From the NCBI GenBank assembly GCA_036244855.1, contig BQKZ01000514.1:28533-92532 (forward strand): 64,000 nucleotides of DNA, in the 5' to 3' direction. Shown piece after piece: positions 1,684 to 62,040 of this stretch (the first letter of the stretch is position 1; the number at the start of each line of letters is the position of its first letter). The stretch is from Temnopleurus reevesii (Eukaryota; Echinodermata; Echinoidea; Temnopleuroida; Temnopleuridae). Both the position numbers and the translations under genes were made by a program. Under the pieces are notes generated by a model, which made no database searches, was not told the origin of the DNA, and was given only the letters and a program-made list of their open reading frames with translations.

Positions 1684-2045
1684 CAGGTAATTGAAATAAT
1701 TATTCTTGCCTTATCCCAACATAAATAAACACTGTTGGGATAGGGCAAAAATCATTTCAATATTTTCTACCCAACACAAAAAAATCATTTAATTGATGTT
1801 TGAGCAGTACCTAAGTATGCTATTACACAAATCGAATCCGCCACTTTCATCGGCTATCGGTGGTCTAGTGGTAAGACACCTGTCTAGTCATCAGGAGATT
1901 GTGGGTTTGATTACTACCCGAAAATGCCTGTGAATATTTTTTCACAGCATCTTGGTAAAGCACTGTCAATCAGTGATTATCCATGTTGGGATAAGGCAAG
2001 AATTATTTCAATTATTTACCTACACAACACAAAAAATAATTTAAT
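1684..2045 (+). mobile_element. tRNA-like element with repeated ends, copy A (rearranged or dimeric)
   Basis: A tRNA-like core (1854-1924) is flanked by direct copies of a segment that starts GTTGGGATA and ends about CCAACAC, at 1734-1777 and 1985-2030 (period about 251 bp). A third, inverted copy lies at about 1685-1720 (TTGCCTTATCCCAACAT). The right-hand repeat runs on well past the 29 bp seen in copy B, as if a second monomer began there. It matches copy B (56145-56418) along its whole length, but is more diverged and has no clear target duplication. Confidence 0.75.
1854..1924 (+). repeat. tRNA-like Pol III core of element copy A (not a functional tRNA)
   Basis: TGGTCTAGTGG at 1861-1871 fits an internal A box, and GGGTTTGATTAC at 1903-1914 is a degraded B box. 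A D-stem GTCT/AGAC, an anticodon-arm stem CCTG/CAGG and a T-stem GTGGG/ACTAC can be drawn. The acceptor strands CTATCGG/CCGAAAA pair at five of seven positions. The mismatches and repeat context argue for a SINE-type promoter rather than a working tRNA. Confidence 0.65.
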
Positions 2046-2600: not shown

Positions 2601-3347
2601 TACCAAATATAAAAGAGATGATCAATCCCCGCTTCCAAGCAAAAATGATTGACTCACAATTGTGTTTGTAAATTATAGTACAGGACCAACATACACGGTA
2701 TTATGAATTAAAAAAGTAGGATTTCAAAATTAATTAAAGTCTTGTGAGTACGAGATACAAATTCGTAAAGTTACTTCTTGTATGCATTGAATTTGACTCT
2801 GTTCAATGGCCTTTAGAATGAGCATCAAACTTGAGAGATAATATTACTGTTGAATCAAAAGCATAATACTCGCTGTTATTTACAGTTGTGTTTGTGAAAG
2901 ACTGAAGACGGAGGGAGAGAGAATGTGGTGATGGGGGCGTTAAATACTAAATGAAATGGAACCATTACGTAACATTTTCTCCCCCACTTTTTTTCTTCTT
3001 CTAGCTGTTTTTTTTTTTATGAACATCCAATTTTTATTATCTGGTATACATGTATGTTGATCCAATTTCCAGGAATTATCAATGGTTCTATGAAAAAAAA
3101 ATAGCATTACTCATGATTAATCAAAAGTATTTTTTTTTTCATTTTGCATATCAAACAGAGAATCTGTTGAATTTAGTATGACGTGGCTTGAATTAATGCA
3201 CTGCAAAAACACCTGTTTTCAATAAATTTCAAATTGTTTCCTTGAAATATTATTCGTCAAAAGGTATCTACTGCCCTTTATTTCAAGGGGATGGGATGCT
3301 TCAATAATTATGATTTTTTTTTTGCTTGAGAAAATTTATGTCAGTCG

Positions 3348-54262: not shown

Positions 54263-56144
54263 TGGTGTAGAAGTATTGTGATGCAGCACATTTTTTAACA
54301 TTAATTTCAAATGATCAAATCAATCTTTGTGAATAATTCATGCAACTGAACAAGAAAATCATGATCATAACATACAAATCATTTTCTGTTTACAAAATAA
54401 ATCTTGCTGTAAAAAATAGCAAAAGTATATTAGGAGAAGTATGTGTATTAGTATACAATATCATACTTAAAGTCATTCTCTATGTCGTTCTAAACTTCAA
54501 ATCAAATCAATTCAAACACTGAAATACTGCCCTAAAAGATAATTCACAAAGCTTGTCGCCGTAACAATTTATTTAGCGATGAATGAATTAGATCCTTTAT
54601 TTTTGTTGGATGGAAAGCACTTTCTCGACTGTTGATATGGTAACTGTATGAGATTGATTGGTTGTCGATGTGACAAGCTTCATGAAACACCCTCCCGTAT
54701 CATTGTCCAATTATCTTGTTATACAGTGTGTCTACCCTTCGGAATATATACAGAAAGCCTAACCAGCTGGGGTAGCATATAAAAATGCCCAGACACACTC
54801 CTAAACAAACTTCATAATCATCTAACACTTTAAGAATTTCAAGAGTTTCCTTCCTTCCAAATTTTTCCTGTCTGCAAAGAGTAGAATACAGGAAAATGGT
54901 TTTGATTCTATTTTTAGAATACATTGTCAATATTTTGATACTAAGAAAGGTATGATAATTTAAAGATGATGCTGTGTGGCATCATTTGTATTGCCATACA
55001 ACATTATAATATAGCCATAAGACATTATAATATTGTTTTGAATTTGTATGCATTTTATATCGGAAATAGTTTAAAACAAGCTAAAACAATGTAAGATGTT
55101 ATTTACAGTAATGTTGTTTATAATGGATTAACATAACTCAGGTGATAGCAGAAATATTGAGAACGCAACCTTAATTAGTAGATGCTATTATTGTAGTTGG
55201 ATCAAGGAGATTTCCTTGGTTTGATTAAAATTCATGGTGATATCCACCCTTTCATTTCTTGGCAAGGAAGGTGCTAATTGGGAGTTTCAAAAACTTGAGA
55301 AGAAGTTGTTGAAGTAGATAAAACTAGAACATCCATGTGGAAATAATTTTATCGGCTTCTTGGCAATCACTTTTCGAGGGTGGTTTCCCTTTTTGAAATC
55401 TTGAACATATTCCAAAGGAGCCCCTTGGATGACACATCACCGTACTTCCTGTGCGACGAGCCATTTTAAGATTCACCCCCTCGCTGACGACAAACAACAT
55501 CATAACAAGTTCTTCCTTCAAACCTACTTGTCCTCTCACGTGCTGGGGCTATTTTTCTCCTTTTTTTTTCCTGATTCTCCGAAGGGGAAGTTTGTTTTCA
55601 TGTTATTTAGTAAGGCATTCAATCAAAGAAGTCTTTTCATTGGCATTTGAAAAGAATAGTACTGCAGCCCCTGGATTTGTTGCCAACAAAAATACCACAC
55701 TGTACGATTAGCAACAATAACATTAACAAAAAGGGGAAATAAAGAAAGAAGAAAATGAAAGAAAAAATAAAGCCCAAAGAACATTGATCTACTGATTGTG
55801 ATTGACATTGGCAAAGAAACATTTTACCCCGACATTATCAAAATGAAATAAACTCTGTACATACTCTCCTGTATTCTTTAATGGGATAATTTCTGTAAGA
55901 TTGTATTTCCCCTGATTTCTTAAAAATGAGTGCACTAAGATTTTGCTGAAATAATGACAATGTATAGACAATCTACATTTGTCATAGCACAATGAGGAGA
56001 CAACTTTTAGTAAATTTCCGGTGATATAGTTCACATTCAACAACCTTTTTGGCTTTTCCAGTACAAGGGACAGCAATGTTATTTCCAGTATATATCTCAA
56101 TGGGACATTAAGAATTCATTGAAAAAGACAGAGTATGAACAATT

Positions 56145-56418
56145 GAATAATTCTAGCCTTATCCCAACATGGATAAACACTGATTGACAGTGCTTTACCG
56201 AGAAGCTGAGAAAAAAATCTCAGGCATTCTCGGGTAGGAATCGAACCCACGATCTCCTGATGACTAGACAGGTGTCTTACCACTAGACCACAGAGAGCCG
56301 ATGGAAGTGGCGGGCTCGATTCGTGTTATAGCAACAGGTACTGCGTAAATATCAATTGAATGATTTTTGTGTTGGGTAGATAAATAATTGAATAATTCTT
56401 GTCTTATCCCAACATGGA
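56145..56418 (-). mobile_element. tRNA-like element with 29-bp terminal direct repeats, copy B
   Basis: The borders are set by an 11-bp target duplication TATGAACAATT at 56134-56144 and 56419-56429. The related block at 57006-57016 shows a single TATGAACAATT, an empty site. The 274-bp element starts and ends with a 29-bp direct repeat (56145-56173 and 56390-56418, two mismatches) containing TTATCCCAACATGGA. Inside, on the minus strand, lies a tRNA-like core (56227-56297) with intact A and B boxes. A hairpin-prone AGATTTTTTTCTC follows. No protein is encoded. It matches copy A at 1684-2045. Confidence 0.85.
56227..56297 (-). repeat. tRNA-like Pol III core of element copy B (not a functional tRNA)
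   Basis: On the minus strand it shows TGGTCTAGTGG (A box) and GGGTTCGATTCC (B box). It has a D-stem GTCT/AGAC, an anticodon stem CCTG/CAGG and a T-stem GTGGG/CCTAC. Acceptor strands CTCTCTG/CCGAGAA pair at five of seven positions. The anticodon stem is short and the acceptor mismatched, so this reads as an element promoter. Confidence 0.75.
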
Positions 56419-56689
56419 TATGAACAATTAAAGGCATTAATTAAGTTTGACAAAATTTAACTTCAAAGAGTTTTCAATAGTTTAGAAGTATCAACTTAAC
56501 TCTGTTGCCCTCAATGGTTAAATAGATGAAGAAATCCTCAACCAGTTTTGTTGTTATTGTTAATTTAACAACTTATTGTCTTTTCATACAGTAAATTTAA
56601 CACTTTTTTGTGTACATTAATCACATGTTTACCTTTAAGATTTGAAATTGTTGTCCCTGCAATAAATGACATGTGTGACCTATTTTTGT

Positions 56690-56690
56690 N
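56690..56690. other. Single-N contig join
   Basis: Copy 1 of the duplicated block ends exactly at this N (TATTTTTGT|N), where copy 2 reads TATTTTTGTGCG. The sequence after the N differs, which suggests a contig boundary. Confidence 0.8.
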
Positions 56691-56908
56691 CGCCCATTTC
56701 AGGCCGACGCTCCCCTGTGCAAAAGCACTTAGCACACCGTAGGAATAATGGCTGATTGACGTGTTCGACGTAAAATACACAGAATACGAGCAAAAAACTT
56801 ACTCCTAATATCCTACACAGTTATATTTAGGCATGTAAAGCAACTTGTGAACACACCAGCTCGTGTAACATCACTTTCTGCATCCTGGTCATTACGAATC
56901 TATACCTT

Positions 56909-57367
56909 TAAAAACCTTTTTGGCTTTTCCAGTACAAGCTACAGCAATGTTTTTTCCAGTATTTACCACAATGGGACTTTTGGGGAATCATTGAAAAAGA
57001 TGGAGTATGAACAATTAGAGGCATACATATATATCAAATTCGCAAAATTTAATTTCAGAAAGTTTTCACAAGTTTAGAAGCGTCAACTTAACTCTGTTGC
57101 CCTCAAAGGTTAGGTAGATGAAGTAATCCACAAGAAGTTCATTACCCTCAATGAGTACCCTCTATTACTGATCTGTTACATAAGATTAAGTAAGTTTGAA
57201 TGATTTTCATTACTTCACCCTAGTTAGTTTAACTGTTTTAATTAAGCTGCTTATTGTCATTTCATACAGTAAATTTAACACTTTTTCGTGTACATTAATC
57301 AAATGTTTACCTTTAAGATTTGAAATTGTTGTCCCTGCAATAAATGACATGTGTGACCTATTTTTGT
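56909..57367 (+). repeat. Duplicated block, copy 2 (empty site for the tRNA-like element)
   Basis: Same order of blocks as 56040-56689, but with the target TATGAACAATT (57006-57016) uninterrupted. Confidence 0.8.
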
Positions 57368-57829
57368 GCGATTACCAGCGAAGCCATTTAAGCATACAGC
57401 TGTCTACATATCAACAGCTCAAACAGGTAAATCTAACTGAGTCCCATGTTCATATCATCGATAACATAAATATAATCAGGATGTGATTTGCACCCCAATC
57501 CGAGTTTGATCATGAGACTTCCTTCCGTTCGTTCTAAAACTGAAAATTTGACACGCCACAGAATTTCCTGTTCATGTTCAATGCACAGTTTTGACTTCAT
57601 GTATATATTTTCATGTTCATGCACAGAAAGCTACCACAAACTAAAATGTACACAAAACTGCTTATTATATCTATAAAAAGTCAAAGACAAAATGCGAAGT
57701 ACACATTCATCAGTACATCATAGTAGTCAATCTTTAATTGTTTGTCAGTTTCCCATCCAATATTTAATTCTTTATATACATGTATGCTACATTATTTCTA
57801 AAGGAGCCCTGAGATTGCATTAATAGCTT

Positions 57830-61945: not shown

Positions 61946-62040
61946 AAGTATTTAAGGACAAAATGCTAACATTCTGAAATGTCATTTTTAATNAAGTATT
62001 TAAGGACAAAATGCTAACATTCTGAAATGTCATTTTTAAT
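61946..62040 (+). repeat. 47-bp exact duplication around a single N (assembly overlap)
   Basis: 61946-61992 and 61994-62040 are identical, separated only by N at 61993. This is what results when two overlapping contigs are placed end to end without merging. Confidence 0.95.

Follow-up and report, generated by a model that had tools for sequence, protein, structure and literature searches.

What kind of element begins and ends with the same sequence and holds a tRNA-like core between the two? The question is raised by a 274-bp insertion in the window, the whole 64,000-nucleotide stretch of DNA analyzed here. Its sense strand, judged by the tRNA, is the minus strand, and unit positions (m1–m245) are numbered in the tRNA sense, with m1 the complement of 56418 and m29 the complement of 56145. 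The copy spans m1, one whole unit, and then runs on to m29. The features are as follows, A and B denoting two outer-end sites described below:

56145 to 56418, minus strand: copy of the element, made up of one 245-bp unit and a further 29 bp, ending at site A
56134 to 56144, no strand: left copy of the target-site duplication (TSD), TATGAACAATT, read directly
56419 to 56429, no strand: right copy of the TSD, TATGAACAATT, read directly
56390 to 56418, minus strand: direct repeat, 5' copy in the tRNA sense (m1–29)
56145 to 56173, minus strand: direct repeat, 3' copy in the tRNA sense (m1–29 of the next unit)
56223 to 56298, minus strand: tRNA-like fold, called Thr(AGT), m121–196 (ARAGORN, Rfam)
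56211 to 56217, minus strand: T7 run (m202–208) directly behind the tRNA on its 3' side, where Pol III is expected to terminate
56408 to 56414, minus strand: 5' strand of the putative RT-start stem, TGTTGGG (m5–11)
56370 to 56376, minus strand: 3' strand of the putative RT-start stem, CCCAACA (m43–49)
56386 to 56393, minus strand: site A of the ATTCAATT type, here inside the element (m26–33; TTCAATT / ATT boundary at m33)
56351 to 56358, minus strand: site B (m61–68), ATTCAATT followed by G
57006 to 57016, no strand: single TATGAACAATT in the duplicated flank, equivalent to an empty site
1685 to 2050, no strand: second, older copy, head-to-head, with one A and one B end

Direct reading bears out the borders given by the first-pass annotation, a 274-bp element at 56145–56418 with the same 29-bp sequence at both ends save for two mismatches. 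The repeats are identical at 27 of 29 positions, lie 245 apart and can be extended to 41 nt at 90%. Both copies of the exact 11-bp TSD can also be read, and element and TSD overlap by four bases, AATT (m30–33), with which the element closes at its 3' end and the TSD opens. Because the flank of the element is duplicated, the window contains its own empty-site equivalent: 56033–56692 and 56904–57370 form a diverged direct duplication with pieces 81–94% identical, and the insert-free part of the duplicate (56904–57139) has TATGAACAATT once. The tRNA-like core lies in the middle of the element, as annotated, and is placed on the minus strand by ARAGORN (56223–56298) and Rfam (56226–56297; 47 bits, cut-off 29). 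The older copy consists of a minus arm (1685–1734) and a plus arm (1733–2050) with a tRNA-like fold at 1854–1925 (+), and has a TSD of just 8 bp that overlaps the element end. A further repeat in the window, at 61946–62040, is a perfect two-copy tandem of a 48-bp unit.

The 558-Mb assembly containing the window was searched with the full element and with the tRNA core, giving 2172 and 1416 first-look candidates, respectively; the best 40 of each were scored, and these figures are not copy counts. Sample 1 comprises 41 loci, namely 39 on other contigs from the best 40 of the full-element search and the two window copies; L048, a second cut of the older window copy, was excluded. As it was ranked by the full 274-bp query, this sample is ascertained toward long arms. 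Sample 2 comprises 8 loci from 28 new places found among the best 40 of the tRNA-core search. The two lists, limited to the best 40 each, place copies on 39 other contigs and at 28 more places, and 61 arms longer than 150 bp are 84–99% identical to a 245-bp consensus unit (median 96.5%). The search that the first-pass annotation had called for returned a dispersed family with TSDs and fixed ends; the terminal repeat on which that annotation had centered is not constant. Arm lengths, tabulated for the 49 loci, reach 751 bp, and long tandem arrays, which assemblies may under-represent, were not seen.

Flanking repeats of at least 8 bp were present at 24 of the 41 sample 1 loci, compared with 1.9% of 1640 mismatched left/right flank pairs, and repeats of at least 10 bp at 18 of 41, compared with 0.06% of the mismatched pairs; 17 of the 41 have no TSD of at least 8 bp. 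The 18 clear TSDs average 12.6 bp and 77% A+T, typical lengths being 10–15 bp. In sample 2, four of the eight loci have a TSD of at least 10 bp. Both length and composition agree with the TSDs of around 8–15 bp at AT-rich sites that are expected of Penelope-like elements (PLEs).

Most outer ends lie at one of two sites separated by 35 bp, site A (m33, after GGCAAGAATTATTCAATT) or site B (about m68, after ACACAAAAATCATTCAATTG); an end was assigned when the motif fell within −14 to +8 of the border, a rule set after the first table had been seen. At 24 of the 41 sample 1 loci two arms meet head-to-head, so both outer ends are 3' ends, and this polarity holds for all 28 inverted joins (24/24 in sample 1, 4/4 in sample 2). 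At the 24 sample 1 joins the arms overlap by 0–13 nt in 16 cases and by 21–59 in four, and are separated by a gap of 2–30 in the other four. Where both ends could be classified, 21 of 22 inverted copies pair one A with one B end (18/18 in sample 1 and 3/4 in sample 2, the fourth being A+A). That single exception is L111 (C1386:122240-123250). Six of the 28 inverted copies, all in sample 1, have an unclassified end, the other end being A in two and B in four. Copies running in one direction end at A, B or neither in 8, 4 and 5 of 17 cases in sample 1, and at A or B in three and one of four in sample 2.

The arms also explain the terminal repeats. An arm of more than 255 bp is present at every one of the 41 sample 1 loci, whose ranking used the full 274-bp query, compared with two of the eight in sample 2; the other six have arms shorter than one unit and no direct terminal repeat. 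Terminal repeats do not define the family, and a copy has them only if one of its cDNA arms is longer than the unit of 245 nt; those at 56145–56418 exist because an arm of more than 245 nt reads the unit start twice. The initial suggestion of a piece cut from a head-to-tail multimer is supported in this respect, with a 245-bp unit and arms above one unit that re-read its start, and the companion suggestion of a miniature terminal-repeat (TRIM-like) class falls with the six core-selected loci that lack the repeat. It is highly improbable that the family consists of TRIM/LTR-type miniature elements or excised satellite units: such elements would account for direct terminal repeats and head-to-tail units, but here the repeat varies from none to above one unit, TSDs are mostly 10–15 bp, the ends are fixed and paired, and copies are dispersed as described above. 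A TRIM assignment fails on direct terminal repeats that are present in two of eight core-selected copies and are not fixed.

The tRNA-like fold of the family consensus is called Thr(AGT) by ARAGORN, with a nearly full cloverleaf. Its anticodon is directly followed by a C, which is unusual in a working tRNA. Behind the tRNA stands a run of 4–9 T in all 36 instances that pass the length filter. Pol III is expected to stop at such a run, so that, judged from sequence, it should end there and would not make the full element. The Pol III promoter proposed earlier is doubtful as a promoter of the whole element. The unit is predicted to fold strongly (−82.8 vs −53.3 kcal/mol for shuffles, z −6.3), but its minimum-energy structure gives up much of the cloverleaf, whose bases pair with m97–113 instead. 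Just before the tRNA, at about 56311–56324 (m95–108), lies a near-complement of the tRNA T-arm, which in that predicted structure pairs with the T-arm and breaks the cloverleaf; it may act as a switch or be what remains of an inverted origin.

These properties bear on whether the family is a Pol III-transcribed tRNA SINE moved by a LINE, its inversions arising by twin priming. Internal A/B boxes, TSDs of LINE-like length and the presence of LINE-type RTs in the genome would all suit such an element. The tRNA, however, is not at the head; 5' ends lie elsewhere, with few near a Pol III start (m110, m125); the T-run follows the tRNA throughout; and there is no A-rich tail. Moreover, inverted copies have a fixed site at each outer end, whereas twin priming fixes one end and leaves the other variable. 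We consider this origin very unlikely. The first-pass annotation had rightly set the element apart from a standard tRNA SINE, and a SINE assignment fails on the central tRNA, the T-run behind it, the missing A-rich tail and the two fixed ends.

We next turn to the PLEs resident in the same genome. A consensus of the PLE RT segment, used as a probe, gave 29 matches, six of them with 51–55% identity over most of the probe. L081, L082 and L090 match RVT_1 (L082 below cut-off) and GIY-YIG, L084 matches RVT_1 alone, and a 266-aa piece of L085 gave no domain match; the GIY-YIG matches in resident PLEs are below Pfam's cut-off. Family searches yielded two weak matches for GIY-YIG and, for RVT_1, matches without a PLE sign. 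Inverted pLTR pieces are 55 bp (100% identical) in L081, 68 bp (98.5%) in L082 and 180 bp (100%) in L084, with TSDs of 12, 12 and 13 bp. In each of the three, one end lies at A and the other is tailed. Among five inspected PLE insertions, these are the three with both ends readable, and all three are A+B; the ends of L085 are unresolved and L087 is cut by a contig end.

The region around site A is arranged similarly in the family and in the PLEs. In the element, L082 and L084, a stem of 7, 7 and 6 bp lies 22, 26 and 22 nt from A, the distance to the second stem strand being 9, 9 and 11 nt; the stem sequences differ. The stem alone is a weak sign, as 2.2% of random positions have at least 7 bp and 6.7% at least 6 bp. 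A 10-mer across site A, TTCAATTATT, is common to the element and L081/L082. When the L082 site is anchored on the element, the best anchor is exactly m33, with 17 of 29 positions identical; counting both strands, 55 of 127942 positions in the window reach this score. Relative to the start sites, the tRNA-like fold occupies about the same upstream place as a hammerhead-like motif in the resident PLEs, GAAACGTC, which resembles the 3' part of a hammerhead core; in L081 this motif precedes A by about 58 nt, counted by eye. The features of a PLE-mobilized element that are testable here are present, with the start-site element shared with resident PLEs as a partial exception because of its shortness.

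Two observations concern individual PLE-probe loci. The L084 pLTR (C9639 region), at 435–480 (−) and 2873–2918 (+), matches the Rfam histone 3' UTR stem-loop at 29 bits (E 7e-5), short of the gathering score of 34. Its stem-loop, GGTCCT-TTTC-AGGACC followed by AAGAAAGA, adjoins the hammerhead-like GAAACGTC and may be a retroelement's 3' end signal of the histone type; the match was absent in ten other PLE-probe loci. L098 contains a purine/pyrimidine-rich stretch (2486–2606) with weak microRNA-family matches, probably reflecting low complexity.

A less likely, tentative possibility is that the family is no independent parasite but the ORF-less pLTR, single or as an oligomer, of an autonomous PLE with the tRNA in its own sequence. 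The unit would then be a pLTR of about 210 bp plus a 35-bp tail, which fits both the unit length and the A/B arrangement, and pLTRs of 181–218 bp have been reported (PMC3846280). However, none of the 29 PLE-probe loci carries the unit; a blastn comparison with these loci, whose flanks extend only about 1.5 kb, gave nothing convincing.

A tandem unit of 245 bp falls within the range of metazoan retrozymes (about 150–450 bp), and the family could be a genuine retrozyme of this kind with a ribozyme that escapes recognition through small size or divergence, its template being a circle made by self-cleavage. Unit size, tandem build, A+T richness and strong folding match the retrozymes of PMC7229834. 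On both strands of the family consensus, however, the CTGANGA...GAAA core and GAAAC are absent; the sole CTGATGA is antisense, inside the tRNA and partnerless. Nor do the Rfam matches include a ribozyme in the window region (E up to 5) or in three loci (E up to 2). The Rfam result is weak evidence, since the hammerhead-like motifs in resident PLEs go unrecognized by Rfam as well, and a hammerhead-family search of the genome gave no match, with its control likewise empty. The type I hammerhead typical of metazoan retrozymes was thus not found by motif search or by Rfam, which is insensitive to PLE-type minimal motifs, and we regard a concealed retrozyme as unlikely.

Our data very probably reflect a non-autonomous retroelement family moved in trans by PLEs. 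In the best reading it has a retrozyme-like build with a tRNA-like fold and T-run, without a detectable hammerhead; we do not call it a retrozyme because that defining motif was not found. As the unit was not found in any of the PLE-probe loci, the helper is inferred from insertion scars and a short site, both read from sequence. The template would be an RNA, either multimeric or circular, with at least one unit, and would be bound at the m5–49 stem-loop by the PLE reverse transcriptase/GIY-YIG endonuclease. The enzyme would make a staggered cut in AT-rich DNA, and both target-strand 3' ends would prime inside the RNA, one at site A and the other at site B, 35 nt apart. Each cDNA may extend upstream for a variable distance, after which the two arms would be joined head-to-head, often at a short shared sequence, or one arm alone would remain. 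An arm of more than 245 nt would copy the unit start twice and leave terminal direct repeats, as in 56145–56418. What the single copy had not shown are the constant features of the family: the pair of fixed outer ends, the head-to-head inversions and the stem-loop common to resident PLEs.

Like tRNA-derived SINEs, the family is small and dispersed, with a tRNA-like fold and TSDs; it differs from them in its central tRNA with a T-run behind, two fixed ends and head-to-head arms. Schistosoma mansoni SMalpha has a Pol III promoter. SMalpha and W-elements are likewise SINE-like and satellite-like repeats, but bear a type I hammerhead, and the available text of PMC8490949 mentions neither tRNA nor polymerase III. 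The short nonautonomous Penelopes of heliconiine butterflies are comparable as short, protein-less PLE derivatives, for which the portion available of PMC6685494 gives no structure or tRNA. A tRNA-bearing PLE element was not found in the open-access literature. A bivalve SINE survey (PMC10294476) demanded the tRNA region at the 5' end, at least as its accessible text describes the filter, and a filter of that kind would miss elements like the present ones.

Metazoan (non-LTR) retrozymes share with the family protein-less tandem units of a few hundred bp, TSDs larger than those of LTR retrozymes, strongly folded RNA and PLEs in the same genome (PMC7229834). The family differs in its tRNA-like fold and in that a hammerhead was not found, and the head-to-head A/B end rule is not described in the available text of that study. 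PLEs have been named as a strong candidate helper of animal retrozymes (PMC7229834), and retrozyme-like repeats are reported, in the accessible part of PMC7761336, to have no conserved motif that reveals the helper. The present family carries a helper signature in its ends, and if a hammerhead is truly missing beside the tRNA-like fold, such a lifestyle would not require a ribozyme.

The closest likeness is to Penelope/Poseidon-type PLEs (PMC11167929, PMC3846280), which have two start/end sites about 30–40 bp apart, a tail on one inverted copy, head-to-head arms, partial tandems, AT-rich targets and TSDs. The ends, joins and TSDs of the family bear this PLE signature of a pLTR with an optional tail. 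In the anole PLE (PAc), RT starts at two adjacent internal sites bounding a 30–40-bp tail, and both strands of AT-rich targets are cut and extended (PMC11167929). In the rotifer (A. vaga) PLE, a tail of 31 bp is attached to one of the two inverted pLTRs and the TSD measures 9 bp; pLTRs also carried a foreign gene in trans (PMC3846280). We did not see A+B pairing counted in the available text of either study; it turns the PLE tail into a testable rule on which target strand primed where. We suggest, speculatively, that ribozyme-free Penelope parasites exist in which a tRNA-like fold and T-run replace the hammerhead as RNA-processing module upstream of the start sites, and that Penelope insertion is generally paired, its strands primed at two fixed sites about 35 nt apart. 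The family departs from PLEs in being ORF-less, with a 245-bp unit, a tRNA-like fold and no hammerhead motif found, and it shares its stem-loop geometry with the PLEs of its own genome.
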